From Athripsodes cinereus (taxonomy: Eukaryota > Arthropoda > Insecta > Trichoptera > Leptoceridae): a DNA stretch of 64,000 nt. The notes under the pieces were generated by a model. That model made no database searches, was not told the DNA's origin, and saw nothing but the letters and a program-made list of their open reading frames with translations. Shown here one piece after another: positions 9,125 through 59,880 of this stretch. Numbering within the stretch: the first letter of the stretch is position 1; the number at the start of each line of letters is the position of its first letter. The translations under genes were made by a program, and so were the position numbers. The stretch lies in NCBI GenBank assembly GCA_947579605.1, contig OX388317.1:19983384-20047383 (forward strand), written 5' to 3'.

Positions 9125-9210
9125 AATTCAGTGGTGAGATACACCACCAATAACGTATCTTATTTTTATTCGCACGGAGAGGCCGACCTGCATGTTTATT
9201 AAATGCAGTT
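9125..9210 (-). repeat. Dispersed (GTA)-end repeat, cut at the Gypsy insertion
   Basis: Matches the dispersed family (TCAGTGGTGAGATACACCACC, then CACGGAGAGG and TGCATGTTTATTAAATGCAG). It stops at the AGTT target duplication. The sequence beyond the Gypsy element does not continue this family, so the copy was already short or ended at this point. Confidence 0.65.
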
Positions 9211-11677: not shown

Positions 11678-11705
11678 TTCTCCGTCTGCGCCCCCTTTTT
11701 GAAAA
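11678..11705 (-). other. Polypurine tract
   Basis: On the minus strand the bases just before the 3' LTR are purine-rich: AAAAAGGGGG, then CGCAGACGGAGAA up to the LTR edge. This is where plus-strand DNA priming would start. Two pyrimidines interrupt the tract. Confidence 0.6.
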
Positions 11706-13294
11706 TTTGAAGTGAAATGACAAATTTTCAAAGAGACGTAAAGTTAAAAAAAGAAAAAAGTTGAGAACCACTGGTTATATACAAGAGATAGTACGTCCTC
11801 CTTGCTCCGCCCGTCCCGTCAAAGACACGCCCCTCTCATCCGTAAGTGACGCGACATATTATTACATATAGAAAGGGACAACACTATGAATACTACATAC
11901 ATATCAAACAACAATTAAATTTTCTTATAAATAAGCAACAATCCTATAGCCCAACATTTACTTATTTTAAACACTCGCGGTTACAGGCCATGCTAAAGGA
12001 ATTTTGGCGCACTGATATTTCCTCCAGTTAAATTTCACTTCACTCAAGTAACTCTATATTATTTATAAGACAGGGCTCCTAAGCAAACATAATTAAATAA
12101 TAACAACAATTACAACATTCAACATTCTTTATAACATTTATATAACAATTACCTTATATTAATAACATGTACAATATATCAATAAAATTTACAATATATG
12201 TGTATGAGGTTCCGTAGCTAATGGAATATATACATACTAATAATTATAATAAAATCGGATAGTCTATTTAAAGTAGAAATATCCAACGACAAGAGTAGTT
12301 GGTCTATAACCACCACGCACGCACAATGTACCGACACAAGTGTCCCGGCATCAGTAGTTCGCGGCTTTCCACAACATTAATATTACGAAGAATTTAATAT
12401 ACATACAAGTTAGAGATGTCTCATTTTATACGTGTTTACCCATCCGATATGAAAGACACTCACAATTAAATATAACATACGTCATGTACTATAGACGAAT
12501 CATATAGCAAGACATTATAAGAACAAAATAAATATTTACATATAACGATTTTCATATACATATGGTCACATAATATTCTCACGGCTTTGATCAATATACG
12601 TTTAGACTCTAATTCGCGCTCGTACATACGGATTAGGTCAGTATTTTTTTTTTTTTTTAATTACAACCACAGAGGCATTCCTCGTAGGACTCTATAACCA
12701 TAAAAATTTCAATTTAATTTTACAATATAAATGCGAACAATACAATTTACACATACGCTTGTCTCATATAATGTACAGCCAGGACGTCTACTGCTATACA
12801 TCATACGACATTCCATATATATACAATATGAGTATTAAAATTTTACAAGGGCTCCACTTACAAAACGATATCGATGTGGACACAAAGTATACACAATGAC
12901 GACAGAAGACTACAACATTTGTGGGGGGTATTATTAAAGAGAATCTCTGTCTGGGGTATTCGATATTTTTCATTCATCATACTACATACATCAACTATAA
13001 TTCCTCATTCAGGGCTCACACAGTCACACTCACATGCATACATCATACTACATACAATTGTCACCAATATCGAAAGACAGGATAGAAAATGAAGGGTTCG
13101 AGGAATTTATATTTAATCGATAATTGTCATCATTATATAATCCATGGACCTGTGTCGTTGGCGCTTGTACCTATGTCTACTCTATTGTACTTTACATTCC
13201 ATTCCTCAACAAGACGATACAACACACAATTCGCTACATATAATATTTTATTTATACTAAAATTTGCATAAGTCACAATACATAACAGGGATAT
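11700..13294 (-). other. Non-coding stretch between pol and 3' LTR
   Basis: 1.6 kb with no minus-strand frame of 60 codons or more, so there is no envelope gene and no remnant I can recognise. It contains a T12 run near 12641..12658. The short plus-strand frames here (12874..13092 and 13089..13271) have no recognisable content and lie antisense to the element. Confidence 0.6.
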
Positions 13295-16200
13295 TCAATA
13301 CTTTTCATCTTTCAGAATATCCTTCACGTGAAACTTTCCACTATAAACACCATCCATTGACTCTAAAAGATACACGTTATCTGACAACTTTGACCTAATA
13401 CGATTTTTCACAAAACGAGGGGCCAATTTAGACATGAATTCCGCAGCTGCATTGGATTTTACAAAATTTCTACGATAGACTACATCACCAGGACGATAAT
13501 CTACTCGTTTTCGACGAAGATTGTAACGAGAGGCAGATTTTTTATATGATTCAGTCAGCATGTCAGTAACCTCATTATATACATCGTACAATACATCCAA
13601 TTTCTGTTTGTAAGAGTTCTTCAGTTCATCCGAAGGATTTTCATCTACATTAGAACTCAAACTTTTGAAAAATGAAGCATGTTGCACGCTTTCAAATCCA
13701 TGCATAAGAAAATGGGGTGAATATCCCGTCGCAAAAGATACATTATTATTCAAACTGGCTTGTACTATGGGTAATTTCTTACTCCAAATTCTATGATTAT
13801 TATCCACCAAAATCGAAAGAGCGGTACCAATGGTTTGATTGTACCTTTCAACTGTATTAGATTGTGGAGCATAATATGCTGAATACAAAATCTTTTCTAT
13901 CCCATACGATTCTAAAAATGATTTGAATGAACGGGAACAAAAATAGGTGGCATTATCCAATAAAATACATTTCGGCACAGAATATGGTAAGAAAATTCTT
14001 TCCTCTAGGCATTTCTGAATTATGGCAGAGGTACATTTTCGCAATGGAAAAATCCAAACAAACTTAGTAAAAACACATACCACAGATAATATATAAACGT
14101 ATCCTTCAACACTTTTGACAAAAGGACCAATTATATCAATTGATAGAGTCTGTAAAGGCATGGACACCAATTTAGGTTTTCCCATAATACCACGTGGTCC
14201 AGAAGTAGCAATTTTATGAGTTTTACAGATTTCACAGCTGTTTACAAATCTAGCGACTGAAAGATGCATGTTTGGCCAATAGAAATATCGTCGTAAATGT
14301 TTGTACGTTTTATAAGTACCTTCATGACAAGAATCGCCACTACAATGATATTCTTGAATTACTCTTAAAGCATCGAGTTTTGGCAATACTAATTTCCATT
14401 CATGAGGTGACAATAAAGTGTTAGACGATTTGGTGTATCTATACAATTTTCCTTCTATTATCTGATAATTCGGGTAAGCTTGTGGGTAATTTTCACAACC
14501 TTTCTTAAGCTTGTTATACACTGCATCACAGGTATCAGTGATTTCTGTAGGCAACGTCAAAGTTCCAATTTCCACACGACTAAGGCAATCAGGTACAACA
14601 TTTAATTTACCTGGTCGATGAGTTACATCAAAATCAAAAGCACTCAAACGAGTCGACCAGCGAGCTAATCTTCCTGTTGGATTCTGTAACTTGTGCAACC
14701 ACTGCAAAGAAGAGTTATCAGTGATCAAGTGAAAACGTACACCATCTAAATAATTACGGAAGTGAGTTATAGAACACAGAGCTGCCAACAGTTCCTTTTC
14801 ACAAATGGAGTAATTTCGTTCAGGACCGGTGAGCTTACGTGAAAAGTATGCAATCGGATGTTCACCATCTTCCAGTTTTTGCATCAAAATTCCTGACATA
14901 GCAAGATCCGAACAGTCAGTATGTAAATAAAATTCCTTCGCATAATCAGGTTGAACTAAAACAGGTGCAGATTGTAAAGCCAATTTTAAACTGTGGAACG
15001 CATTTTCAGCTTCTTCGTTCCATACAAACTTTTTGTTTTTTCTAGACGTTAGGGCACTCAAAGGGGCTGCTATATGTGCGAAGTTTTGTATGAATTTTCG
15101 ATAATAAGAACACATACCCAAGAAAGATTTTACCTGTTTCGGTGTAGTAGGGGTGGGAAATTTTTTCATGGCTTCTATTTTGAGTTCATCAGTTCTTAAC
15201 CCATCGCCATCTACAATATAACCCAAGTAACGCAGAGATGATTTACAAAATTCAGACTTAGTCATATTGATAGTGAGACCATTTTCCTTCAAGATAGATT
15301 GTACAAGTCTTAGGTCATTACAGTGTTGTTCAAAGGTTTCACTTACAATCAGGATATCGTCAAGATAACAATGTACACGACCGGGAAAGCGGTGACTGAA
15401 CAGTTTGTCAGCAATCATTTGCATGTGACTAGGAATATTACGTAGACCAAACGGGCACACAGAGAATTGGTAAGATCCACGTCCATCAATGAAGAAGGCG
15501 GTTTTCTCCTTAGATTCAGGCGATAATGGAAGTTGCCAGAAAGCCTTGGACAGGTCCAGAGCAGTTAAAAACTTGGCATCACGCAAACTGTCCAAGATAC
15601 GATCAATCCAAGGTAGACAATACGAGTTTGGTTTAGTTACTTTGTTCAGGCCACGACTGTCCAAACAGAAGCGAGGTTCTCCATTCTTTTTATTAACTAT
15701 CAACGCAGGCGACTGCCAAGAAGAAGAAGCAGGTTCTATGACTCCTAATTGTAACATTTTATCAATTTCTTTGTTCATGATTTCTTTCTTTGCATGAGGA
15801 ATAGGATAATGTCTCTGCCTAACAGGATCTCCAATGGTTTCAATCTTATGAAAAATTCCTTTCAAACGGCCCAATCCTTTCTTTTCATATGAAACATCTT
15901 CATAGGATCGCTTGATATCATCGATAATAACAACTTGTTCCGAGGTTAAATTGGTCGGACCAATCAATCCTTTGGTTACAACAGGCGGTTCAGGAGTGAG
16001 ATCAGCAGAAAAAATACGTTCATCTATTTGGGTTACAGCATTTAAATGTAATACAGGAGGTATTGTACAAACAGACACAGGAAAAAGTTCAGGACAGATA
16101 TTAAATCTTTTCCAAAAGTCAATTCCTAACAAGTAAGATGACGTTATAGATGGAACAACTAAAAACGTGATACATTTTTCAATACCCTGATACTGTACAG

Positions 16201-16545
16201 GCAACGTTAAGGTTCCTAAAACAGATTGACCATTTCCGTCCGCAGTGAGTACACGAGTTTCACAAGGTACAAGAGGATATCCTAAATTCAAAAATTGGAC
16301 ATGAGAATTCTTTCCTAGAATTGATATCACCGCCCCACTATCCAATAGTGAGAGACAGATTACAGAATGAATTTTAATATTAACGTAAGGTCGGCCATCA
16401 TTTTCTTTTCTAACAACACGAGTTGTGCATAAATTTCTGGTTACCCCTCGGTAATTATACAGTGAGTTTCCGTCTGACGATATTACATCTGAAGATGAAG
16501 AACGAGCTATCGTATCGGAAGGATGTCTTAACGAGGGAGAAATTA
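13295..16545 (-). CDS. pol: Pol polyprotein: protease, RT, RNase H, integrase
   Basis: The frame is open from the gag overlap down to the stop at 13295, giving about 1,016 residues counted from the TTG codon at 16345 and about 66 more upstream. There is no ATG near the protease, so translation should come through the frameshift. Counted from codon 16345: aspartic protease DSGA at 2-5; reverse transcriptase with LDLSKAF (Asp264) and the YLDD catalytic box at 327-330; RNase H with Asp477, Glu518, Asp543 and Asp586; an integrase HHCC zinc finger (His667, His674, Cys704, Cys707); and an integrase core with Asp737, Asp797 and Glu833, the last two separated by exactly 35 residues (DD35E). A GPY/F-like module, with APRF, lies near 973-995. 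I see no chromodomain. All catalytic residues checked are present and the frame is unbroken. The order PR-RT-RH-IN places it in Ty3/Gypsy. Confidence 0.96.
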
Positions 16546-17646
16546 GTTTTTTGAAAACGACGGGGGTGGTCTAGAAGTATCCGGCATCAGCGATGCAGGT
16601 TTCTGTTCACGCATGACATTGTTATATCTATTCCTGGGTGAACGACGGGGTGTAAAATGTCTAACTCTGTTTTTACATTCCTTAGAAATGTGTCCAACAT
16701 GTCCGCAAGAAAAGCATCGTATGACTGGTTTGGGACGATTCTCTACTGCATTAACTCTCATGGCAGTAGGTCTAGAAGAAGAAGAAGAAGTATGGCCCTT
16801 GGTCAGACGATCGAAGTTGGAGACCATTCTTTCCAGTTCACTTACTGACGAAATGTGAGAACTAGCCAAAAGAGAGACATATCTCTGATGTAACCCGCGT
16901 TTGAAGACTTCCAACAATTCATTCTCAGTCAGTTTCTCATCAAGGGAGCTATTCATTTCTATTATTCGGGCAATATAATCTGCTGAAGTTTCATAATTAT
17001 TTTGTATCGATGACCAAATACGTAATTTTCTATCTATCATAAATCCAGGGGCTTCAAAACGGTGGTAAAAGAGTGCCTTGATAGCTTCCCAAGTCATTTC
17101 CTCTTTAAAAATTATTCGAAAGTGTGTAAGCGCTCGATCCTTCAGAAATTCAGGCAAAACGTATACCAATTGTTTATTTGGGAACCTCCTAGCCCTTGCA
17201 ATTTCTTCCAACCGCGTAAAAAAGTTTCTTACATCACCGAGACCATCAAAAGGTTTTACTGGCCAAGATCCAAAATTTACATTCAAAAGCTGTGAGGTTT
17301 TACTAAGACTTAAAGCATTATCGAAGGATTTCTCGATAGATGCCGACTCTTCTACAGCAACAACGTTCACATTGCTAGACACGGATGTACAAGGTGGTTC
17401 CATATCAAGAGATATTTGAGCATTCATACGCGATTGTGGAGCAACTTGTTCGAATTCTACTTCCAGATTTTGTTTATTATATTCTAACGCTTGCCTTCTC
17501 AAACTAGGAATTGAACGTTTCGGTATAACTCCTCTTTCAGATAAAGCTTTCTTTAGGGTAGCACCGTTAGCTTTGTCTACATTGGGAATTGGACCCAAAA
17601 ATAACAATGGTTCAAATCGAGACATTATTATAAGAAAGTATGACAA
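16543..17646 (-). CDS. gag: Gag polyprotein of the Gypsy element
   Basis: A 367-residue structural protein that would form the cytoplasmic particle and package element RNA. The N-terminal half is polar with no motif I recognise. Residues about 125-285 look like a retrotransposon Gag capsid region, with an FxxxLEEIARA-like helix near 143-152. A serine-rich linker (286-291) precedes one CCHC zinc knuckle, CFSCGHVGHISKEC (Cys311, Cys314, His319, Cys324), followed by a basic tail typical of nucleocapsid. The first ATG is at 17646; a second in-frame Met eight codons in could also start. The stop TAA at 16543..16545 comes immediately after the slippery heptamer AAAAAAC, so some ribosomes should shift by -1 into pol. 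The frame is intact, and it is the first gene after the leader. Confidence 0.93.
   Translation of the reverse strand: MSYFLIIMSRFEPLLFLGPIPNVDKANGATLKKALSERGVIPKRSIPSLRRQALEYNKQNLEVEFEQVAPQSRMNAQISLDMEPPCTSVSSNVNVVAVEESASIEKSFDNALSLSKTSQLLNVNFGSWPVKPFDGLGDVRNFFTRLEEIARARRFPNKQLVYVLPEFLKDRALTHFRIIFKEEMTWEAIKALFYHRFEAPGFMIDRKLRIWSSIQNNYETSADYIARIIEMNSSLDEKLTENELLEVFKRGLHQRYVSLLASSHISSVSELERMVSNFDRLTKGHTSSSSSRPTAMRVNAVENRPKPVIRCFSCGHVGHISKECKNRVRHFTPRRSPRNRYNNVMREQKPASLMPDTSRPPPSFSKN
16546..16552 (-). promoter_or_regulatory. -1 ribosomal frameshift heptamer AAAAAAC
   Basis: The minus strand reads TCA AAA AAC TAA in the gag frame, so A AAA AAC has exactly the X XXY YYZ phase used by -1 slippage sites. 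It is followed at once by the gag stop. The pol frame is -1 relative to gag and is open from here to the protease, so a single slip at this site joins the frames. I did not identify a clear downstream pseudoknot by eye. Confidence 0.88.
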
Positions 17647-18435
17647 AGGTTCTAAAACTTTATATGCTCAAAAAAAACTTTTAAGTTACACACGAAAATT
17701 TATCTTTGAATGACAAAGGTTCAAGAGATATTTGGTTGTGCTGACAATGTTATTATCTTCCGACGCTTCAATGTTTTATTTTATGTTTTATAAATAACTA
17801 AAATTATTTTCACACTCTCCTATGCTTTTTCTATTCTTACAAACTAGTTTCTTAAACGTGTCTTTCGACACTAGGGAGGGACTCGGTGCTCTGGTAGATA
17901 AAAGAAGTTTATCGCCACCACCCAATTCGGATTAAATCTGATTACACAATGAGTAATCAATCGTTAACAAAACAAAATTCTGATCACGAGATCTATTTAA
18001 TAAATAAATAAAATTTCTTACGATTATTTACTCGCGCACAGTTTGAGAAAGTGCGTACTTACCAATTATACTTTGTTTATACTCCGTATCTACGGAAATT
18101 CCCGCGCGAAACGTAATACATTCAATATTTCGCGGGAAACTTGTGTTCCCACCAAATCTTAACAAAAGTCGGTTTTCACACCACGCTATATTCCAACCAG
18201 TCGCGCGGCGATTTACTCGTGATATTTAACAGTTATCACTTCACACACATATTTGTATTACACATGATTGCTACAAGACATATCAATTGTACATATAATT
18301 TATCACAAATGGCATTAAAAGCAACATGTAAACCCAAGCGTAGTCATGACACAGATTTTTTCAAGTTTGTAATTATTCGAATTACTGTATATCCGAGAAA
18401 CGAATTCACAATTTATTCGTCTTCTTTTTGATATT
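17647..18435 (-). other. Gypsy leader / 5' untranslated region
   Basis: About 0.8 kb lies between the primer binding site and the gag start. It shows no long minus-strand frame. It probably holds the packaging signal and leader of the genomic RNA, but nothing specific can be pointed to. Confidence 0.6.
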
Positions 18436-18459
18436 ATCCCGGACGACGAGCCCACAAAT
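18436..18459 (-). other. Primer binding site, tRNA-Pro-like
   Basis: Directly inside the 5' LTR the minus strand reads five bases and then TGGGCTCGTCGTCCGGGA. From memory of animal tRNA-Pro 3' ends, this resembles the complement (GGCTCGTCCGGGAT) with an extra GTC repeated in the middle and a shorter G run. The position is right for a primer binding site. The exact primer tRNA is uncertain because of the three-base insertion. Confidence 0.6.
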
Positions 18460-20926
18460 TGCTACGTGAGGACGTGCAATCAAATTGCTACGTGTGTGGT
18501 TTCCATTAACCACGCTCTCACATAACAAGTAAATTATGCTTCGTCCAACGGTCGAACACACAATTTATTACAAAAGCAAAATTAGAACAATGAACAAGGT
18601 TTCAAACTGAACTATAAGAAGCAAAATACATATTCTGTAGAGTAATACTGTTATAAATATAGGTCTATATGCTCGTAAGTAGTCTAAAGATATTAAGAAG
18701 TAAAAGGTCTATACTCGTGTTTATGTCTAGGGGTTTCTTACAAGTGTATGGGGCCCTTTTACTTGGCTCTGGGCGAGAGAGGCCTCTGTGTCATGCTTAC
18801 CCTTAAGTCCACAAGCAGTCAGGTTACCAGGAACACCTTACTCCTTCAGTATACCATTTATAACTTATTGAATAGAATCTTCATATTATATATCAAGGTA
18901 AATTTATAGGTACATCCATGTAAACAACAAAATTATATATATATATCATGTGAAACTAAGATTATCAAAAAGTACATTAGACCTTTCCAAGAAAGTGGAT
19001 ATATTATTTCCATCAATGGAGCCTTTCATTTAGCTCTTGGTTGCCTTCATAGTGAGATAATATGGTCTTCCTCCCAATGGTTGGCCAAGGATTCGAACCT
19101 TTGTTACATAACTACTCCGAGTATATACTAGGTTATTGGAAGATTATATACACGGAGGCGGAGATATGTACTTTAGTATTATTAAGAGTATTGAATCTAC
19201 TGATGGGTATACAAAATGAATTTCAATAGAAAGATATCGGATGGTAAGTGATTTACATTTATTGTGTAAACATATACATTACATAACAATACAGTTACTT
19301 TCAAAGTAAATCTGTAGGGAATACTATTCCATACAATACGCAAAATTATGAAAGTATTGCCATATTTGGATAGAGACAGTAAAACACACAATGGTAATTA
19401 TTAAAAGACACCAACCTTGGTATTACAAATATAAATCAATACCTGGATTATCGTGGGGTCTATAACATGAAATGGGAATCATTCATTCTTCATTCATACT
19501 CAAGATCTTATATTATTACACAAAGGAAATTAATACATAGATAGTTCAACGATTACATGAACTTAGTCATGAATAAATTATCAATATATATACATCATAT
19601 ACAGTAGTAATATTGTCACTTACAGATAGACTGGCGAGCTGGATAAGAATAACACAAAGACAAGTATGTTATTGTTGACGTATTTTGGCACTCATAGACG
19701 GGAGATGGCAGGATCATGAAAGAAACATACCCTGATGATTCTATGGCGGTCGCTGGTTATACTCTAGGACGTACAGGAGTGCGGTGATGTCAGAATCAGA
19801 CAGATCCTGTCCTCTGGACGAAGAGATCGCCACTTCACAAGTGATAAGAGAAATAATTTACGTTTCAACACTATTCTCAGTGCCAAAGGAATAAGGCGTC
19901 ACTATTTCCATAGTCTGTCCAAGCATATACGGGTGGTCATTTAATCACTCTCATAACAAGGGTCGTAACCAGAAAAGTTAAGAGAGGATCTTCACGTTCT
20001 CATAAGAATGAGTGTTCATTGATAAACTACTGATGCGCAATATACAGACTCTCGCGTTGAAGATGTATTCGTTCCTTCGGAACCCATTCTTGTTTTAGTT
20101 AAATTTATAACACTGAGCAAGTATAAAGAATTGTTTAAGTGATTCTTTTATGAATCCTAACAATGAAAAGTTGATCAGAAACAAGGGATTATCTTATTTC
20201 ACACGGATATGAAAAATGGCGGCAATTGCAACAACCACGCCCAAAATCATACAAATGCTACATCACTCAAAAAAAACTCCCAAATGTTATCTTAATATCA
20301 CTTCGACAACGGAATCTATATGACTCACAGGATACTCAAGCCTGTTCACGATATTATTTGGTTTATTGATTACTATTGATTATTAATAAGAACGGTTTTA
20401 GGGTACACTAATGTTGGCGGTAAATCCGTCCACGCGCATAACAATTGACACAGGTTGTTTTAAAGTACATTATTACACGGCACACAACAAGAATTATTTT
20501 TTGAACGCAGGAAGACAACAAGATTGATCATTACACTGTTATGAAGATTGCCTCTAATTATCTAACAATACTATTAACTTGTCGTAATTACTACGATGAC
20601 TGTCCGCCGCGAGAACAGAGTGGGCACTCGCGCGTGTTGATTGTTCCGGGGTTGGTATCTAACTGGCGCGCCAAGCCAATCTTCGGAAGTCGTTAGACAA
20701 AAAATCCGTTGGGAAAAACCACGTGATCTACTGCTAAGTCGAATTTATTATTGGTGATGGGTGCAACCTTCGTATGCACGAGGATACCCGAGGATTACCG
20801 ACAAGGTGTAGAGAAAATATAATAATATTATTATTTATTATTGAGTGACGACAAAGGACAACTACGAATTATTGGTATAGCAGTGGATATGAACGTATTA
20901 CGCGTTGAATATTTTAATGCGTAGCA
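18460..20926 (-). repeat. 5' LTR of the Gypsy element
   Basis: This 2,467-bp repeat begins TGCTACG and ends CGTAGCA on either strand. It is the upstream LTR for the minus-strand element, so it should hold the promoter. It matches 9211..11677 without any length difference. It contains a 64-codon minus-strand open frame (19197..19391) also present in the other LTR, but with no recognisable domain, so I do not call a gene. It is unusually long for a Gypsy LTR. Confidence 0.95.
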
Positions 20927-21260: not shown

Positions 21261-21810
21261 ACATACCTACTACCCTAAATCTAAAAGATGATGTGTTAAT
21301 AGGGATAGATAGATATTCGTTTTAAAAGGCCTATATATAATTTAATATTGATACAAAAGTTACTAAGGAACAGCAAAAAAATATAAGGTTTTCACTACCA
21401 GCTTTTCATCAAAGGACAATAGGGAGAAAAGATATTGAATCACAAAGGGCCATAATCCCACGTGCATCATTTGTCATATTGTTGTTATAACTAGTGATAA
21501 ATCGGAAACCGAATCAGTTATCCGGCTAAATGTCAAACCGAATAACCGGATATTAATTTGACCACTGTCATGACGTAGGTATGTAGTTAAAAATCATGTT
21601 ATCTATAAATATCTATAACTTTACGGCATATCTATAACTTGAAGTTGGGTAGCCAGAAGACTAGCCGCATGTCATACACATACAAGTTGTTCTAACTATG
21701 TCATTCACTGTGTCAGTCATTAGGTTGTAAAATTCCATAACCAAATTAAAAAACAAATAAATTTTCAAAAATAGCCAGCGAAACTTTTATCAAATAATAA
21801 AATTTAGCTT

Positions 21811-21960
21811 TCACAAAGCATTGTTTTACTTTCACTCTACTTTATTTAAACGTTAGAACGTTTTCGAACAATATGTGTCATTGATAATGAACGGATATTG
21901 CTCGAAAACGTTCTGATGTTTAAATAAAGTGGAAGTAAAACAGTGTTTTGTGATAGGTAT
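21811..21960 (+). mobile_element. Penelope-like inverted remnant
   Basis: Two arms of about 60 bp, 21811..21874 and 21895..21958, are inverted copies of each other (CTTTATTTAAACGTTAGAAC and its counterpart). The right arm begins with a hammerhead-like motif. It is nested in the hAT-like element. Confidence 0.55.
21877..21917 (+). ncRNA. Hammerhead-like motif, U3-A8 type
   Basis: Stem I GTCA/TGAT, core TTGATAA (C3 to U together with G8 to A), an extra T, a weak stem II GAAC/GCTC, GAA, self-complementary stem III AACGTT, then C before the predicted cleavage point. It is the weakest stem II of the set. Confidence 0.5.
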
Positions 21961-25015: not shown

Positions 25016-25044
25016 AAAAACTCTGTGACATCAAGATCATCGAG

Positions 25045-25150
25045 AAGAAACACAATATGTAGTTAACTTCCAAATGACTTTTATTACTTCGCGTACTAGT
25101 ATTCGGAGACTCTCGACTCCATCATCAGGCGATTAGTAAAATGTGACATC
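25045..25150 (-). mobile_element. Penelope-like terminal fragment
   Basis: AACACAATATGTAGTTAACT, then TTACTTCGCG and a hammerhead-like motif. The sequence is about 85% shared with 50545..50650, defining a family. No coding sequence is attached. Confidence 0.6.
25089..25132 (-). ncRNA. Hammerhead-like motif, CUGAUGA core
   Basis: Minus strand: stem I TCGC/GCGA, core CTGATGA, extra T, stem II GGAG/CTCC, GAA, self-complementary stem III TACTAGTA, then C at the predicted cleavage point. All elements of a hammerhead are present. The 15.1-16.1 pair is U-A rather than A-U. Confidence 0.7.
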
Positions 25151-25993
25151 AACCAAATGTCTACAATTGTCCTAATGTCCTAAAGAGAACACATATTTCA
25201 GATGATTTACATAATTTGTCATATTGACATATAAACGAATTTGTAAAAGTACGGTATCCAACTAATCGATGATAAAAATGCCATCAACGTGTACAGCGCT
25301 TTTACAGGCATGTAGGTAAGTTTTTATTTGTTTACAAAAAAGGTGATTTTTTTCTCTGGAAATCAATTTACTTTCCTCGCTACCCAGTTTCAACCCTTCG
25401 TTGTTGTCAAACCCCAATAATAAAATGATGAACAGGCGACATCAAAAGGGTTGTCACTGACGTCAGCGTTCAAAGACTTAACTTTTTTTGCAGTACATTT
25501 TTCCGTCAGAATCTCTGTATTGAAAAAAAAACAGGAATTTTGGATATTGAAAGGTTTTTTTATGTTCGTCAATCTTATATTAATCTACAATCAATCTTCT
25601 TTTTACGGAAAAATTGTGAATTCCTATGTAGTGTAAGATTTTTTTTCTTAAAAATAGCCCGTTCTGAATTCAGATGATTTTGTTAAGGACTGTCCTTAGA
25701 CAGTATCAAAGGTGCTGATGAAGTGTGTAGTCTTTAGATTGCTCCTGAAGATGATAATTAAAAGTAAAAGTAAAATAAGTTTAAATAGAGAGTTTCACAA
25801 ATATAGTGCAAGAAAAATAAATAGTATAAGATTACCAATGAGAAAAAAGCACAATCCCAAAACTCACTCTACAAATCATTGAAGCTGTATAATGAAATAC
25901 CAGAAAATATTAAAAGTTTAAGTTCAATAAAAAAATTAAATTGGAATTAAGAAAATATATTATCAACACTTGAATTTAAGAAGATATTTTATG
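25150..25993. other. AT-rich DNA without a gene
   Basis: Nothing recognisable beyond a CTGATGA at 25713..25719 that lacks the rest of a hammerhead. Confidence 0.5.
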
Positions 25994-31699: not shown

Positions 31700-32245
31700 A
31701 ATCATATTTTGAACCAGTCTAGATTAATCATCCAAATTGATCACACTCACTGAAAGTCAACGTACTTGAATAGGTATTACTAAACTAGGTATAAACACAG
31801 AGGAATTGAGAATGTTGCCTAGGTTTAAAGAGTACTCTTAACCTAGCCTTAAGTCGATTCATAAGCGTCGAAACTCTGTGTCATGTACTCCTAAGGAAGT
31901 TCACATATTTTGTATGTGTATCACAAACAACATACTTACCTAGTTAATATCTATTCAAATCATAATTCATAAACAATCAAAACACTTATATTTTCACCAT
32001 ATTTATTCAAACTCTAACGTTTTCGCCCACTTCAATGGGCATTCTCAAGAGTACTGAAACAGTAAAATGTCCCCTACAAAAATTGAAGGTGGTCACAGAG
32101 AGGGGAGAGGGGTGGGTGCAGGGACTGAAGTAGAAGAGTGGGGAGTGGTATTGGTAGGTACAACATTCAAATAGGTTGACTATCAGTGAGTGTAATCAAT
32201 TTGGGATTATTTATCTAGAGTGATTCAAAATATGATTCCTGGATG
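31700..32245. mobile_element. Inverted-repeat element with ~68-bp arms
   Basis: The left arm 31700..31767 (AATCATATTTTGAACCAGTC...CACTGAAAGTCAAC) is matched in reverse by 32173..32245 (GTTGACTATCAGTGAGTGTA...). The arms are about 85% identical. It encloses a PLE fragment at 31995..32060 and a GC-richer, G-rich stretch at 32095..32155. There is no coding frame. Ends and target duplication are not resolved. Confidence 0.55.
32011..32052 (-). ncRNA. Hammerhead-like motif, U3-A8 type, perfect stem II
   Basis: Minus strand: stem I ACTC/GAGT, core TTGAGAA (C3 to U with G8 to A), extra T, stem II GCCCA/TGGGC with loop TTGAAG, GAA, self-complementary AACGTT, then A at the predicted cleavage point. 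Stem II is fully paired. Confidence 0.7.
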
Positions 32246-37584: not shown

Positions 37585-37643
37585 TATTTCTTTCACTAAA
37601 CAAATAAAACAAGCGTTTTATTCTACTAATGATTTATTCGATG

Positions 37644-37682
37644 AGAGAGACGTCTTTCGTCTTATAAGGACATTGTCAATCT
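37644..37682 (-). ncRNA. Hammerhead-like motif, U3-A8 type
   Basis: Minus strand: stem I AGA/TCT, core TTGACAA (C3 to U with G8 to A), extra T, stem II GTC/GAC, GAA, self-complementary AGACGTCT, then C at the predicted cleavage point. Confidence 0.6.
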
Positions 37683-37787: not shown

Positions 37788-37826
37788 AGATTGACAATGT
37801 CCTTATAAGATGAAAGGCGTCTATCT
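37788..37826 (+). ncRNA. Hammerhead-like motif, U3-A8 type
   Basis: Inverted partner of the motif at 37644..37682: stem I AGA/TCT, core TTGACAA, extra T, stem II GTC/GAT, GAA, stem III AGGCGTCT (one wobble), then A at the cleavage point. Confidence 0.55.
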
Positions 37827-38239
37827 CATCGAATAAATCATTAGTAAAATAAAACGCTTGTTTTATTTATTTCGATATGGAATTCTACTACCTAAACACC
37901 GACACAATGAATATTTCTTTCACCTTAAAAGCGTGATTTCTGATGATGATTTTTTTACCCATATATGTGAGTATTTTTTTCAAAGGTTATTGAACATTTT
38001 TATTGTTTGTGCTTAAATCATTGTTGTTTTGACTACATAGATATCAAAATACACGATATGAAAACAATATTTGCAAAAATATATTTTAAATGAAACAACT
38101 CATCTGGTACTGAATGAAAGAAAAAGTTAAATTTAACAGAATAGAAACAAAATGGGAATGAATTTTTATGATTGACTTTCTATATTATCTCACAAAAATG
38201 GACAAGCAACAATATATTATGTTATAACTAGTTAAAGAG

Positions 38240-39165: not shown

Positions 39166-39171
39166 GTTATA

Positions 39172-39300
39172 TAATATTCACTGTGTCGGTGTTAAGGTAG
39201 TAGAATTCCATATCGAAATATATAAAACAAGCGTTTTATTCTACCAATGATTAATTCGACGAGAGAGACGTCTTTCGTCGAATAAATCATTATTAGATTT
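39172..39300 (-). mobile_element. Penelope-like fragment, family of 37597..37911
   Basis: CACTGTGTCGGTGTTAAGGT, CATATCGAAATATATAAAAC and GAGAGAGACGTCTTTCGTCG are the reverse of the right arm at 37805..37911. The hammerhead 5' core is missing because the sequence turns back on itself (GATTAATTCGACG... then CGTCGAATAAATCA). Confidence 0.6.
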
Positions 39301-39854
39301 GGTAATAAATAAATCATTATTTATTTCGTTATATAATATTATTTAATGATGAAATTTAAAATTCTCTCGCCAGGTGTCCGCATGGCGCTAGTGGTGGTAG
39401 TTTAGTTTTATTAATATAAAATTCATCTTTAAACTATAACAGCTAAGAAAAGCAATATTATGTATAATAAGTACGATGACAGCACCTACCATACATTAGT
39501 GGCTATAAATTTTAAAGAGGTGTCCATTATTTCCCATGGAGTTTCATAAGATTTTTAATAACACAAGCTGTGAAAGAACGCTAGAAAAGCTTTCCTGGTT
39601 TGAAATTAATCATTTAATATTTTAATATGTATGTACGTTTTTGACGACGTTAGTTTTTTACGATACATTATAATTTTTATGATTCATGAAATAGGCCCAG
39701 TAGGAAAAATCTTCAAATTTAGTTATTAATTATTTACTGTACATTGGATCCAAGCAATTGACCATGTAAGAAATAATTTTTCTTCATTCTGTATTTCCCA
39801 GTTATTAAAGTCCACTTTTGTCAAAGTTTCCCAAAAAATTCTTACTGTAAAGAA

Positions 39855-40689: not shown

Positions 40690-42137
40690 ATAGTTCATCA
40701 ATTCCGCCATTATATGGTATGGATATGGTTTAACAATCGAGAAAAATTCAATGCAAACCCATAGAACAATCAATATTTTATCTAGCATTTCTTAGTTCAG
40801 ATCATAGTACATAATATTTAATTGTATTATACTCACATTGTTATTTGGTTTTTAATGATTTTTCATAAAACTATCAAAATGTTGTGTGTAGTTCAGTTTT
40901 AGTTAATATTATTTTTATATTTTGTTTCGTCTTACACGTAGATCTCAGTATTCTTATGTTGTTTTCACATTTTTTTTTTTTTTTCAAAATTATGATTTAA
41001 ATTGAAAAAAAAATAATGTTCCAATTTTGTTGTTTGTTATTCATGTATGATTTAATTAATTTTTATTATAAAAAAAACTATTCATTTGTCAAGTAAATGA
41101 TTATTTCCCAAGAAAAGTACGCTACAAAGCTATGGTTAGTAGTAACAAAAATTTTAAATGTCCTCTTGCGGAAGAATGGCAAACTAAAACAAAGATTTTC
41201 ACCAATGCATTGGTAAAAATTACTCGCTTTTATTAGGTACATAGAGTAACTTTACTAGTATGTTAGTATGTACAAATAGCTATGATTGTATTCCGTATTC
41301 AAGGCAAGAACACGCATAGGTAGTTAGTAGAACATAGATGGAGCTAGTAGGAGGAGCGGTCTAACATTTATTGATGGCATAATTTGTCTTAGTTTGCTAT
41401 GGTAACACCCCTTCATCCCTTATAGACAAGACTGAAGACTGAAAGGGTTGATATCCGACAATAATAATAATAATAATAATAAGAAGGGATTGTTAGGTTT
41501 TCTTATTATTTGGTACATATTATGTAGGAACGTGAAATGAAAATTATTGCTTTTATTTTTATAGCAGACATGATTTTGGAAAAAAGTAATAAAAATGTAT
41601 TGTATTACGTATTTTTCATCGGTTATTATAGAAACACGTTAAGCATATAGAATTTATAATTATAGATAACAATTACATTTCACATTAATTATTTTATATT
41701 GTAGTTTTTTTTCGTTCTGTTTTTAATTTTTATTGTTTTATTTGAGTTTACATATATTACAAACATGTGACATTATAATTATGTCTATTGCGAAAATATT
41801 TAGTTTTAAGGAAAACTACGTAGGTGTATTCCTTGATTAATAAATAAATCAATATCATTTAAATAATAAAATCTATGAAAACAATCTGATATTGAATTTT
41901 GCCAGAAATACATCTTGTTTTTTTCCTGGTCTTAGTTGAGTCGAAAATGCATCCACCTATGTATGCAGGTTAATTCTTCAGAAATGCTTATCCATTATTG
42001 CTTTTAAGACCTCCGGTCACTCCAAAACAAATCTTTCAGTACACATGTTTGAAACCCGTTTATGGCAGTTACTTTTGGTAACAAAGCTTATGAATTTAGA
42101 TATAAAAAGTATAGAGATTCTATTTTATCGGTAACTT
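40690..42137. other. AT-rich DNA with (AAT)n
   Basis: A perfect (AAT)n microsatellite at about 41459..41483 and long T and A runs near 40970..41010. No gene. Confidence 0.5.
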
Positions 42138-42146
42138 TATGAAAGT

Positions 42147-42378
42147 TCATTTTTATTATTATATATTATATTACAAAATTATAAAAATAATATCAACACT
42201 AACACTGTTTACTTTCACTATATTAAGTTCTTAAGTACAAGGCACTGACGATGGTCAAGTCCGAAAGGCCTCTGCCAAAAATAAATATAGTGAAAGTAAG
42301 CAGTGTTAATGTTGATATTATTTTTATAATTTTATAATATAATATATAACAGTAAAAAGTATGTTTTAAATTCTCTTC
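42147..42378 (+). mobile_element. Penelope-like inverted remnant
   Basis: Arms 42147..42222 and 42283..42352 are inverted copies (ATCAACACTAACACTGTTTA and onward). A hammerhead-like motif sits between them, next to the right arm. The flanks ATGAAAGTTCA (42139..42149) and ATGAAAGTGTCA (42379..42390) may be a slightly altered target duplication. Confidence 0.65.
42241..42276 (+). ncRNA. Hammerhead-like motif, compact
   Basis: Stem I GGCA/TGCC (perfect), core CTGACGA (position 7 is free in hammerheads), extra T, a short stem II GG/CC, GAA, self-complementary AGGCCT, then C before the predicted cleavage. At 36 nt it is the smallest of the set. Confidence 0.7.
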
Positions 42379-47248: not shown

Positions 47249-47324
47249 TTAGTTCTATTAAATTATCAAATAAAATAAATATTTATTATTATTTTGTTTT
47301 GTGTTACTGTTGAGTAAGACTAAC

Positions 47325-47367
47325 GTACGACCGGTTTCGCGGACTCCGAGTTCGCATCATCAGGTGC
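47325..47367 (-). ncRNA. Hammerhead-like motif, CUGAUGA core
   Basis: Minus strand: stem I GCAC/GTAC (one mismatch), core CTGATGA, extra T, stem II GCGAACT/AGTCCGC (one mismatch), GAA, self-complementary ACCGGT, then C at the predicted cleavage point. Confidence 0.7.
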
Positions 47368-47736
47368 TGATCTATACTGAATTAAACAAAACAAATACAA
47401 AAGTTCGTTAGGATTTACCATGAGGTTGTAGGGGTAGGCGGGGTCGTGTTGGTTTCAGGCGTGGAGTTCTTGGAATATGAGATGGGGAATAGTTGTAGTA
47501 AGGGAGACGAATTCGGAAGATTATTATTTTTTTTTTTACGCGGCGGCAGAATTGCCATCCACACTTCTCAGCATTATACAACCAGATAAGTCTCCATATG
47601 ATCAGTCATGGTCACACAAAAACTTAACAGTCTAATGCCGGGAAAAATTCACCTATCCAGATATACAGGATATCAAAGGATATCAAAGGAGTCGAGCTAT
47701 TATTTTTATTAATTTCTATTGCTTCCAGTGCTTCCA

Positions 47737-47779
47737 GCACCTGATGATGCGAACTCGGAGTCCGCGAAACCGGTCGTGC
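47737..47779 (+). ncRNA. Hammerhead-like motif, CUGAUGA core, best copy
   Basis: Stem I GCAC/GTGC (perfect), core CTGATGA, extra T, stem II GCGAACT/AGTCCGC, GAA, self-complementary ACCGGT, then C before the predicted cleavage. Every conserved hammerhead base is present apart from the inserted T. Confidence 0.78.
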
Positions 47780-48499
47780 GTTAGTCTTACTCAACAGTAA
47801 CACAAAACAAAATAATAATAAATATTTATTTTATTTGATAATTTAAAATGAAGTGTTACAAAGTAAATGCCGATACAATTAATGAAATTAGTTCTATTAA
47901 TTTAATATCATATTCCACGTATTGACGACAATTTTCGCTCTACAATCTCTGCGAATCATTACTAAGATATATCGACACCTACACAGAACATGTGAGAATA
48001 CATTAGTCTACATTTCAGATAATACTATGTATGTACCTACTCTAGAGAGCTTTTCTTGTTACCCCTTCCCCTCTACCTGTATTTATACTACCTCTCTACT
48101 ATACTTACTTAATGGTTTTCTTCATGTTAAGCTCTGTGTTGCTACATTTAATTAATACACGCCATCGTTATTACCTACGTTACGTTACGCAAGAGCTTTT
48201 ATTAACGAAATAATAATATGTAGATTTACTTATTCGTTCAAACTCCATGAGAGCTTTTCATAATATAATACAGAGTATTTTAAAATACGAAATAAGAATT
48301 GTGCACAAGAGAACCAGAAAGCCTAAAAATTCTTTATCTGACCGGAGGATTAGAGAGAAGCAGAGCTACTATGAGATGGAGTCGCTAGATGAAGGAAGCA
48401 AAAGGAGGAGCCTCGAAGAAAAAGAATTAGGAATAATTTGAGGAAAAAGAAAAGTTATGACTAGAATGGAATTTTTAATACCTTAAATTTATATTCTGA

Positions 48500-48680: not shown

Positions 48681-49355
48681 AAAGTGGGTGATAATCTAAT
48701 TATTCCCTCATCACTGTAGACAAGGTGAGATAATAGCCAATATCATTGAATTCGTTTATGCTTTGATGACACTCAAGTAATTACTCATAAATTTTCTGTG
48801 ATTCTTTTGGTTATTTTTTTACTTTTTTGTTTAAAAAAATCTACAAGTCGTTTTACATTAAAATAAGAAGATGCACTGTTGGTAGATTTTTTTACTACTA
48901 TCCTTAAATATATGTGAAAACAAAAACACTATTACGTATTCGTTGAAATAGAAGTATTTAATAATCTCGTGTCCAAATAAGTTTTGATTATTTATTTTTC
49001 ATGAGATATTAAAAAAACACTTTGATCCGTGTTGAAACAATCCTGGTTTGAAATCAGAAAGGTGTAAACCCCAACAAGTGCGCCTATTAGTCAGATTTCA
49101 AATAAGCAGAAATTTCACTTTTGAAGTTTCCTTCATTACCTTCTCTTTATTGCGCTGTACCAAAATGTGTATTATTAATTATTAAAATGAGTCGAAAATA
49201 TAAAAAAAATCGAATATTTAACTAATAAAGTGCTACAGAGTGATAAAAATAAAGATGATATTTTAAACTTCTACACACAGTACAGTACACAGAGTTAAGT
49301 ACAATTTAGGTAGCCATCTCTCTATGTATACCATCGCGGTGTTGTTCATAATACT
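48681..49355. other. AT-rich DNA without a gene
   Basis: Nothing recognisable before the PLE fragment that follows. Confidence 0.5.
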
Positions 49356-49367
49356 CATTTTTTTGCA

Positions 49368-49535
49368 GTGTACACACTTAAGTGTGATGACTGCGATGCT
49401 GCATATATAGGTATGACCAAAAGAAATTTTAAAACTAGACTTAAAGAGCACGAACTTTGCCTTAAAAATAGTAATTATTCTAAGTTCGCGAATCATATTA
49501 TTGAATCTGATCCAAATTTCATAAAAAACAAATAG
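49368..49535 (+). pseudogene. Penelope-type GIY-YIG endonuclease fragment
   Basis: The plus strand reads VYTLKCDDCDAAYIGMTKRN, then FKTRLKEHELCL and a later SKFANHIIE, ending at TAG 49533..49535. The order VYxxxCxxCxxxYIGxTxRxFxxRxxEH...AxH matches the GIY-YIG nuclease of Penelope-like retroelements, which nicks target DNA. About 70 bases downstream another frame continues ETLEINKALNSKLNIVSQ, as expected of the C-terminus, so the gene is frameshifted. A TTTTTTTGCAG run just upstream looks like a 3' splice site. The reverse transcriptase part is absent. Confidence 0.75.
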
Positions 49536-49659: not shown

Positions 49660-50540
49660 CCTCTTCTCACAATGTTTACAATACCTTATCCTTGATAGGT
49701 GCAGCTATTGTTTTCAATTATTTTGTTTTTGCAGATGTTTTAACAAAAATATTAGTCAGTATTGTATCGCTCGTTAATGGTTTATCGAACTCGATCGCGA
49801 TTTAAATCATCAAGTAACGGATGTGCATTGTAGAATACTATTAAAAACATTCAAAATGTCTCGTAACTGTTACATAGTTAATCCTTCAAAAATAACTGAT
49901 ATTTGTAACTAAAACGGTTAAACTTTTAGACAAATCTCCGCTGAATTTGTTTTAAAACAGTTGGCTTTTTCGACCCAGTCTTGTTATTCACATACTTCCT
50001 ACTTCTGTTGTTGCTTATGCCTACTTATTTTATTTTGTAGTAATCTACATATTATTATTATTATTTCTACTTGTATTAATATGTACTGAAACCTAATCGG
50101 GTGGAAAAGCAGAGAATTCGCGTTATTACAAAGCGTATGTACCTATAAAGCATTTCCAAACCACATTTATTTCTATACACGTATACGGAACCTACTCATA
50201 TTTAGTACTAGTCTTTTCGATCCGGCTTCTCCCAGGCTTTAATAAACTGAATTAACTTCCCAATTCACGCAGACATAGGCTTACACGATCATAAGAAACG
50301 TGAATCGCCCCTTCAATGTTTGCCACCTTCTCCCTCGGGTCCCACGAAGTCAATAGGCAGATTACAAGATAGGTATACTAAAACTTACAATATCGTTTTG
50401 TAAATTTATTGCAATTATATAATGATGAGATCTAACATGGGCAAAATCACCCTCTGTTCAGTGGAACGCCCACAAAAAAAAACTGAAATTTCGATATTTT
50501 TGAACGAAGCTGCTTGTTAGAAGTCTATTTCAAGATAAAA
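49660..50540. other. AT-rich DNA without a gene
   Basis: May include the remaining 3' part of the PLE copy just upstream. Nothing else can be named. Confidence 0.4.
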
Positions 50541-50544
50541 TAAA

Positions 50545-50650
50545 AAAAAAAACACAGTATGTAGTTAACTTTCAAATTACTTTATTAACTTCGCTTACTA
50601 GTATTCGAAGACTCGCGACCCCATCATCAGGTGATTAGGAAAATGTGAAA
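50545..50650 (-). mobile_element. Penelope-like terminal fragment
   Basis: AACACAGTATGTAGTTAACT and the motif region align with 25045..25150. It is preceded by an A-rich run. Confidence 0.6.
50591..50634 (-). ncRNA. Hammerhead-like motif, CUGAUGA core, weakened
   Basis: Minus strand: stem I TCAC/GCGA (one mismatch), core CTGATGA, extra T, stem II GGGG/CTTC with two G-T pairs, GAA, self-complementary TACTAGTA, then A. It is a paralogue of 25089..25132. Confidence 0.6.
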
Positions 50651-51057
50651 TAATAAAATTCAGAGACAAGCAGTATTTATAAAATTTGAACGAAAGAATA
50701 TTGGGAGAAGCCCGTGATGATAAGAATTTAATTATGTATGTATGAAGGTAATTTATTTAATATTCTGATTAAAAGATTAGATACTACTGATCTAGACGAC
50801 CAGTCTTCACAATAATCAGTTCCCGCAACATCATATTGTTACGAATGTCGGGAATAGAGGTGATCCAATAAGAAAATCATCACTTTTAATAAAGGAGGCA
50901 TGTATCCTCAGTATGATTCCGAGGGCGAATGATGACGATTGATTCTTTTCGTCTGCTCCGTAAGCGGATAAGTTGGTATGTGTAAAAAATATTTTGTAAT
51001 AAAACATAATAAATAGTTCGTTAGAATTTAAAAATAATAAACGTTGGTTTATTTCAT

Positions 51058-51294
51058 TGTTAAATTTGTCAACAAGAATCTGAGCAAATTGACAATATTC
51101 TGACAAATAATAACACTTAGGTATATGCCTATATTTAAGGTAATGGTTTTAGTCTAAAACCATTACCTTAAATATAGGCATATACCTAAGTGTTAAATTT
51201 GTCAACAAGAATCTGAGCAAATTGACAATATTCTGACAAATAATAACACTTAGGTATATGCCTATATTTAAGGTAATGGTTTTAGTCTAAAACC
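51058..51294. repeat. Direct-inverted-direct repeat with perfect 83-bp palindrome
   Basis: The 104-bp block at 51058..51161 recurs exactly at 51191..51294. Between and overlapping them, 51112..51194 is a perfect palindrome with 40-bp arms and a 3-base loop (GTC). The inverted copy comprises the end of the block read backwards. Confidence 0.92.
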
Positions 51295-58687: not shown

Positions 58688-58973
58688 AAAATTAGTTGGA
58701 GCTGTAAAAATCAATTCAGTGATGGGATATTCGCTCACGCGTGCTACAAAGTGTTAAAGAATGAGCTTTTTGCGTGAATAAGAGGACTCATCAATAATAT
58801 GTTTAGTTGTAATGGATTGAAAACATTTAGAAAATTAGTTGGAGCTGTAAAAATCTATTCAGTGATGGGATATTCGCTCACGCGTGCTACAAAGTGTTAA
58901 AGAATGAGCTTTTTGCGTGAATAAGAGGACTCATCAATAATGTGTTTAGTTGTAATGGATTGAAAACATTTAG
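58688..58973. repeat. Tandem duplication of 143 bp
   Basis: 58688..58830 and 58831..58973 differ at only a few positions (for example ATCAATTCAG against ATCTATTCAG). The unit carries no recognisable gene. Confidence 0.9.
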
Positions 58974-59269
58974 AAAATGGATTGAAAAATTGCGTTTGAG
59001 ATCATCTCGCTTCTCATAATAATATCTACATAATAATATCTCCGTACTTATGGATAAAATTATAAGCAAATTTGTCTGTTAATATTAACGATAGTCCATC
59101 AACTATGTATCTAGATGAATAATGACTTGTCGTTAATATGTTTTATCTACTGAAAGCAAATTTGGTACTCAGTTTATTTTCCATTGCCTTTTTGTTGTTG
59201 ACACATATTTTTACATTGTTTAATCACGAACACATAAAACTCTTACTTTTTATTCGTTTCTTAGTGTTC

Positions 59270-59629: not shown

Positions 59630-59880
59630 TTCATATTAATATTTTTTTAAATGAAACACAATATATAGTTATCCCAATATTGACTTTATTTATTTTGCGA
59701 ACCGGCTTTCAAGAGCTTCCGCTCTCATCGTCGGGCAAAAGTAAAGTGAAGCTTCATTACAAGTTAAGTATGTGACAAACAGAAAACAATATTGTTTAAA
59801 GCCGGCTCGCAAAAATAAATAAAGTCGATAGTGGAATAACTACATACCTATTGTGTTTCATTTTAAAAAATATTAATAAA
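59630..59880 (-). mobile_element. Penelope-like inverted remnant
   Basis: Arms 59630..59707 and 59801..59880 are inverted copies (AATATTTTTTTAAATGAAAC and AAGTCGATAGTGGAATAACT). The left arm bears a hammerhead-like motif; the right arm keeps only its last part. Target duplication not resolved because the outer arms are themselves AT-rich palindromes. Confidence 0.65.
59693..59740 (-). ncRNA. Hammerhead-like motif, long stem I
   Basis: Minus strand: stem I TTTTGC/GCAAAA (six pairs), core CCGACGA (U4 changed to C), extra T, stem II GAGAGC/GCTCTT (six pairs), GAA, stem III AGCCGGTT, then C. Stems are the best of the set, but the U4 change would be expected to weaken catalysis. Confidence 0.6.

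Follow-up and report, generated by a model that had tools for sequence, protein, structure and literature searches.

Hammerhead-type motifs in small, often foldback units of probable Penelope-like origin in the caddisfly Athripsodes cinereus

The window analysed here is a 64-kb stretch (64,000 nucleotides) of the Athripsodes cinereus genome (assembly GCA_947579605.1, contig OX388317.1, positions 19,983,384 to 20,047,383 of the forward strand), and all coordinates below are counted from its first base. In addition to ten hammerhead-like sites, it contains a Gypsy-type LTR retrotransposon, whose two identical LTRs indicate recent insertion, a fragment of an endonuclease gene and other repeats:

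9210-20926: Gypsy-type LTR retrotransposon with identical 2468-bp LTRs (9210-11677 and 18459-20926) and open frames for pol (13295-16345, reverse strand) and gag (16543-17646, reverse strand)
49314-49532, forward strand: degenerate GIY-YIG endonuclease fragment (PF01541, E 3.6e-5, 24.4 bits, cut-off 22.6)
51058-51294: overlapping direct and inverted repeats, with 104-bp direct copies at 100% identity and a 105-bp palindrome; sub-threshold match to mir-4536
58688-58978: two 148-bp direct copies, 98.6% identity
7056-7097/7391-7432 and 33270-33310/33485-33525: short elements with inverted repeats of 41-42 bp, 95-98% identity, no hammerhead match

The initial annotation had proposed that ten hammerhead-like ribozymes of one layout lie in this window. 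A check of the sequence found all ten, and each can be parsed structurally as described:

47737-47779, forward strand: CUGANGA core (unit A)
47325-47367, reverse strand: CUGANGA core, one stem I mismatch (unit A)
42241-42276, forward strand: CUGANGA core (unit D3)
25089-25132, reverse strand: CUGANGA core, U15.1-A16.1 (unit B1)
50591-50634, reverse strand: CUGANGA core, U15.1-A16.1, one stem I mismatch (unit B2)
59693-59740, reverse strand: CCGACGA core, C4 (unit C)
21877-21917, forward strand: UUGANAA core, U3-A8 (unit D1)
32011-32052, reverse strand: UUGANAA core, U3-A8 (unit D2)
37644-37682, reverse strand: UUGANAA core, U3-A8 (unit E1)
37788-37826, forward strand: UUGANAA core, U3-A8 (unit E1)

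The layout common to all ten runs stem I, 7-nt core, stem II, GAA, stem III, H and stem I, with an AUG beginning at A9 and an H at position 17 in every site. Stem III is 6-8 nt long and self-complementary throughout, as a perfect palindrome in eight sites and with G-U pairs in two. Stem I pairs completely in eight sites and has a single mismatch in each of the other two (47325 and 50591). The proposed CUGANGA-type core is present as such in half of the sites (5/10); four others have the paired variant UUGANAA, and one has CCGACGA. Positions 3 and 8 of a hammerhead pair with each other. CUGANGA or the paired UUGANAA is found in nine of the ten sites; 59693 deviates at position 4, where C4 replaces U4, presumably weakening cleavage. 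A15.1-U16.1 is present in eight sites and U15.1-A16.1 in two. Four sites therefore carry defects (47325, 50591, 25089 and 59693), while six are intact at every core position if the paired U3-A8 exchange, found at four sites in three units (D1, D2 and E1), is counted as intact. A natural covariation from C3-G8 to U3-A8 has been described in hammerheads and is active in vitro (Perreault et al. 2011, PMC3088659). An AATAAA lies within ~15 nt 3' of stem I in eight sites (the exceptions are 47325 and 47737) and may represent either a poly(A) signal or sequence inherited from the common ancestor.

When both strands of the window were scanned, a structural descriptor of the layout recovered eight of the ten sites and nothing else, against a mean of 0.45 and a maximum of 3 places in 60 dinucleotide shuffles, which correct only partly for its having been drawn up with the sites already known. 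The two sites that it missed are those with a stem I mismatch. Narrower descriptors, each compared with 150 shuffles, gave three places for the canonical core (shuffle mean 0.033) and four for UUGANAA combined with A15.1-U16.1 (shuffle mean 0.053). When positions 3 and 8 were left free and A15.1-U16.1 was required, six places were found, all among the ten sites; the shuffles gave a mean of 0.43 and a maximum of 3, and none of 150 reached at least six. All six places have a Watson-Crick pair at 3-8 (four U-A, two C-G), and the zero counts for mismatched or swapped letters at these positions, where the shuffle averages are ~0.03-0.11, are weakly informative alone. In an alignment of six sequences, which was fitted to the structure, standard pairs fill 88.9% of the pair cells compared with 64.0% after shuffling (0/500 as high), and both-sided changes occur in seven of nine pairs, with co-variation in stems I and II. 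We conclude that the observation is genuine and exceeds what chance would produce.

The Rfam hammerhead models, which had been suggested as a check, gave no match in the window, either at the gathering score or at E values up to 10, and none in two sites searched singly. This may simply mean that such minimal forms fall outside the curated models. Covariance models built from the sites themselves, suggested alongside, supported some of the sites but not others. A MAFFT alignment of all ten was discarded, as it was misaligned at GAA because the lengths of stem II differ, and 32011 was also misplaced in a set of four. The first model was therefore built from three sites of equal length (25089, 50591 and 59693) and searched without filters. 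The best three of its 17 unseen matches are 47737 (E 0.015), 32011 (E 0.3) and 47325 (E 0.59), and the next is an unrelated place at E 0.73. With these three added to a second, six-site model, the best of 14 unseen matches is 21877 (E 0.015), followed by a place at 49767 on the forward strand (E 0.044). Sites 37644 and 37788 were found by neither model, and 42241 was barely detected by the self-built models (E 0.29 in a 211-base search). A scan of a viral collection with the hammerhead pattern gave no matches.

The sites had been described as scattered through the window. Self-comparison of the window and arm alignments place them in eight small units, of which five are head-to-head foldbacks and three are single copies. 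A decayed site lies in a related further unit (E2), and foldbacks make up five of the nine units in all. Several units share a 3' end, here called the tail module, and exact direct repeats of 10-13 bp flank six of the nine:

47262-47887, unit A: foldback with outward-facing hammerheads at 47325-47367 (reverse strand) and 47737-47779 (forward strand); arms of 112 bp with 99.1% identity and an unshared spacer of 365 bp; tail module on the right arm; flanked at 47249-47261 and 47888-47900 by 13-bp direct repeats, TTAGTTCTATTAA
37597-37911, unit E1: foldback with outward-facing hammerheads at 37644-37682 (reverse strand) and 37788-37826 (forward strand), both U3-A8; tail module on the right arm; flanked at 37585-37596 and 37912-37923 by 12-bp direct repeats
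42113-42352, unit D3: foldback with one hammerhead at 42241-42276 (forward strand); weak tail module on the left arm; flanked at 42103-42112 and 42353-42362 by 10-bp direct repeats
59634-59878, unit C: foldback with one hammerhead at 59693-59740 (reverse strand), C4; weak tail module immediately to the left of 59634
21704-21959 (right end uncertain), unit D1: foldback with arms at 21805-21959 and a hammerhead at 21877-21917 (forward strand), U3-A8; tail module at 21704-21738 (reverse strand)
25035-25141, reverse strand, unit B1: single copy with a hammerhead at 25089-25132 (reverse strand); no tail module; flanked at 25024-25034 and 25142-25152 by 11-bp direct repeats, TGTGACATCAA
50509-50684, reverse strand, unit B2: single copy with a hammerhead at 50591-50634 (reverse strand); weak tail module; flanked at 50499-50508 and 50685-50694 by 10-bp direct repeats, TTTGAACGAA
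32011-32052 (coordinates of the hammerhead alone), reverse strand, unit D2: single copy, U3-A8
39179-39327, reverse strand, unit E2: single copy with a decayed hammerhead and a tail module; flanked at 39166-39178 and 39328-39340 by 13-bp direct repeats

In each foldback the 3' side of the hammerhead faces the nearer outer end. The arms are of unequal inner extent in three of the five foldbacks (D1, D3 and C). Unit A looks recent, given the near identity of its arms and its exact 13-bp repeats. An initial interpretation of unit E2 as a foldback with its junction at stem III was abandoned when alignment to a whole arm of E1 showed a single arm (81% identical over 151 bp). The D1 foldback (21832-21938) has a sub-threshold Rfam match to MIR1120 (E 2.3e-7, 50.1 bits, gathering 86), as a perfect-looking hairpin would give. 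Inverted repeats at 31700-31771 and 32165-32237 (87.7% identity) surround the 32011 hammerhead and may belong to a separate element that received the D2 insertion.

The tail module is ~38 nt long, with an alignment consensus near ATATGGANTTCTACNAAGTAANNACCGACACA and an AC-rich end, and lies at one outer end of A, E1, D1 and E2. These four are the only places in the window that match the consensus with 0-1 mismatch; the next best has 6. The module of D3 is weaker (it differs from a second consensus at 6 positions, no fewer than two unrelated places do), and those of C and B2 are visible only in an alignment of seven ends picked by the analyst. In the foldbacks the module is found on one arm only, clearly in A, E1 and D1 and, less distinctly but probably, in D3 and C. 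A stem-loop in the module was considered and rejected, as folding of five tails gave nothing beyond shuffles (z -0.02 to 1.15). The tail pattern matched 11 stretches in the viral collection.

The direct repeats are longer than expected from 1000 random placements of the same geometry, of which 0% (A), 0.2% (E1), 0.5% (E2), 0.3% (D3), 1.1% (B1) and 2.0% (B2) reached the observed length, although this corrects only partly for search ranges that were picked after reading the sequence by eye, and the B1 repeat was found after an earlier, wider-placed search had missed it. No direct repeat beyond chance was found at C, D1 or D2 (6, 5 and 5 bp). In A, E1, E2 and D3 the repeat starts at the end of the tail module or within ~10 bases of it. 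We consider these repeats likely to be target duplications.

Five foldbacks might suggest MITE-like DNA transposons whose terminal inverted repeats happen to hold the motif. A DNA transposon would not show the asymmetry seen at the ends of A, E1 and D3, where the arm without the module ends ~38-45 bp sooner than the module arm, which runs on to the direct repeat. The length of the repeats is not fixed (10-13 bp), and single-arm copies with direct repeats also occur (E2, B1 and B2). With neither symmetric ends nor a fixed duplication length, we regard this explanation as highly improbable.

What the units do resemble is the anatomy of Penelope-like elements, namely an inverted arrangement of pseudo-LTRs (pLTRs) with a tail on one arm and short target duplications (six of nine units), which supports the Penelope-like link proposed earlier. 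None of the units encodes a reverse transcriptase or GIY-YIG open reading frame. They are too small for a reverse transcriptase frame and would therefore be non-autonomous derivatives rather than complete Penelope-like elements. No Penelope reverse transcriptase was found among the 20 open stretches scanned in the window, where the reverse transcriptase detected is that of Gypsy. A search with the Gypsy polyprotein gave at least 120 matches, 483 of the 7992 proteins scored; among those listed, the two that carry species names come from moths (Plutella and Mythimna) and are 42-43% identical. The GIY-YIG fragment (49314-49532) lies outside the units and is likely of Penelope type, an assignment made by eye; a homologue search with it gave no matches and a PDB search a single match at E 1.4. 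The second match of the six-site model begins 235 bp past this fragment and is possibly the decayed pLTR of the same element:

49767-49800, forward strand: weak hammerhead-like match (six-site model, E 0.044), core not intact

We therefore read the sites as hammerhead-type motifs in units that likely derive from a Penelope-like pLTR plus tail, with transcripts predicted to self-cleave mainly as dimers held by stem III, and we give this reading a probability of roughly 80%. The kind is already known, as minimal type I hammerheads of Penelope-like elements, and is here resolved into small, often foldback units. The units are also small, non-coding and provided with type I hammerheads, as are the retrozymes of metazoans, in which hammerheads in tandem repeats release a unit RNA that is then circularised and copied, and which may use Penelope machinery too (PMC7229834). 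Self-comparison of the window revealed no tandem direct copies of the hammerhead unit. The copies occur singly or in inverted orientation, with a fixed 3' module as their end, which makes a retrozyme origin very unlikely.

In the Penelope-like reading, an element RNA would carry the hammerhead near its 5' end, and two RNA copies joined by the self-complementary stem III would cleave in trans as a dimer. A stem III of 6-8 nt without a loop would need a second copy as its partner, and cleavage is thus predicted to need two copies. The hammerheads of A and E1 lie on opposite strands and so cannot pair as two sense copies within one transcript, leaving intermolecular pairing. When eight sites were folded, the hammerhead dimer was the minimum-energy dimer for one (25089) and not for the other seven. 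A Penelope-like reverse transcriptase-endonuclease acting in trans would begin reverse transcription at the tail module or ~40 nt upstream of it. Since whole hammerheads persist in the inserts, the RNA templates were probably uncut at this place, or cut and rejoined. A start of the second arms at the cleavage site was considered and rejected, as the shorter arm in C and D1 retains stem III, which lies upstream of the cut.

In foldbacks, two RNA copies would have been reverse-transcribed from the two cut strands, leaving outward-facing 3' ends, and this would most simply account for their unequal 3' ends. Alternatively, and for this step only, the foldbacks may have arisen by self-priming on an antisense template. 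The same mechanism has been suggested for rotifer Penelope elements, where inverted pLTRs stand head to head with junction palindromes (PMC3846280). Simple hairpin priming does not directly yield the unequal inner extent of the arms in D1, D3 and C, nor the 365-bp unshared spacer of unit A, and we hold self-priming to be a possible but not the favoured route. A more tentative extension of the two-strand account, which we think rather unlikely, is that the palindromic stem III is itself the pairing device of insertion. Two RNAs would be reverse-transcribed as a pair from one staggered cut with starts ~40 nt apart, the foldback would represent a dimeric retrotransposition intermediate, and the motif would be kept for pairing as much as for cleavage.

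The predicted best candidates for activity are 47737, 42241 and 32011, followed by 37644, 37788 and 21877 (short stem II). Weakened or no activity is predicted as likely for 47325 (stem I mismatch), 25089, 50591 and 59693. For the U15.1-A16.1 form, low but detectable activity has been reported (PMC3088659; PMC10085705). The departures predicted to weaken or stop cleavage in four of ten sites, and the fact that all copies with an entire hammerhead went in uncut at this place, could also mean that the units are the same Penelope-like ones and their hammerheads decayed or inactive leftovers without present cleavage. The six sites that retain every core position, paired U3-A8 exchange included, and the recent appearance of unit A argue against this, and we consider it conceivable without preferring it to predicted cleavage as dimers.

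The role of minimal hammerheads in animal genomes has been called a mystery (PMC7761336). If the dispersed copies are bounded foldbacks with an uncut hammerhead and a tail on one arm, then each copy records its copying route, and the role of the ribozyme, whether in cleavage, choice of the start site or RNA pairing, would become testable. A limited search of literature listings found no earlier description of a foldback form of dispersed minimal hammerheads, and we claim no novelty for it.

Rotifer Penelope-like elements consist of direct pLTRs with an adjacent inverted pLTR, make short target duplications, have an optional tail on one of the inverted pLTRs and can have unrelated DNA between solo pLTRs (PMC3846280). 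The units share with the Adineta vaga families the inverted pLTRs, the tail on one arm and the foreign DNA between solo pLTRs. They are much smaller, and their target duplications measure 10-13 bp compared with 8-10 bp; the accessible text on these families mentions no hammerhead (PMC3846280). In the Poseidon element PAc of Anolis, the hammerhead overlaps the start of the open reading frame and an internal reverse transcription start lies downstream of it; both strands were cut and extended in vitro (PMC11167929). Poseidon hammerhead mutants still insert and no cleavage was seen without protein (PMC11167929), both of which we count against our preferred explanation. PAc resembles the units in having an AUG at the start of stem II, with C3 and G8 before it, and an insert 3' end a short way downstream of the AUG, but it encodes a reverse transcriptase-endonuclease and the units do not (PMC11167929).

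Metazoan retrozymes are likewise small non-autonomous elements with type I hammerheads, but they form tandem repeats of ~170-400 bp with a hammerhead in each, whereas the units are inverted or single arms (PMC7229834). The U3-A8 variants of Perreault et al. 2011 show the same covariation as the four sites in D1, D2 and E1 (PMC3088659). Minimal type I hammerheads number in the thousands and are mostly dispersed in non-coding DNA, some of them in the pLTRs of Penelope-like elements (PMC7761336). With those of Penelope-like elements (Cervera and De la Pena 2014, via PMC7761336 and PMC6155905), which act as dimers according to the title of Lunse et al. 2017, the putative ribozymes described here share the type I order, the loopless helix III and a dispersed or pLTR location, and they differ in lying within bounded foldback or single units and in including four U3-A8 sites.
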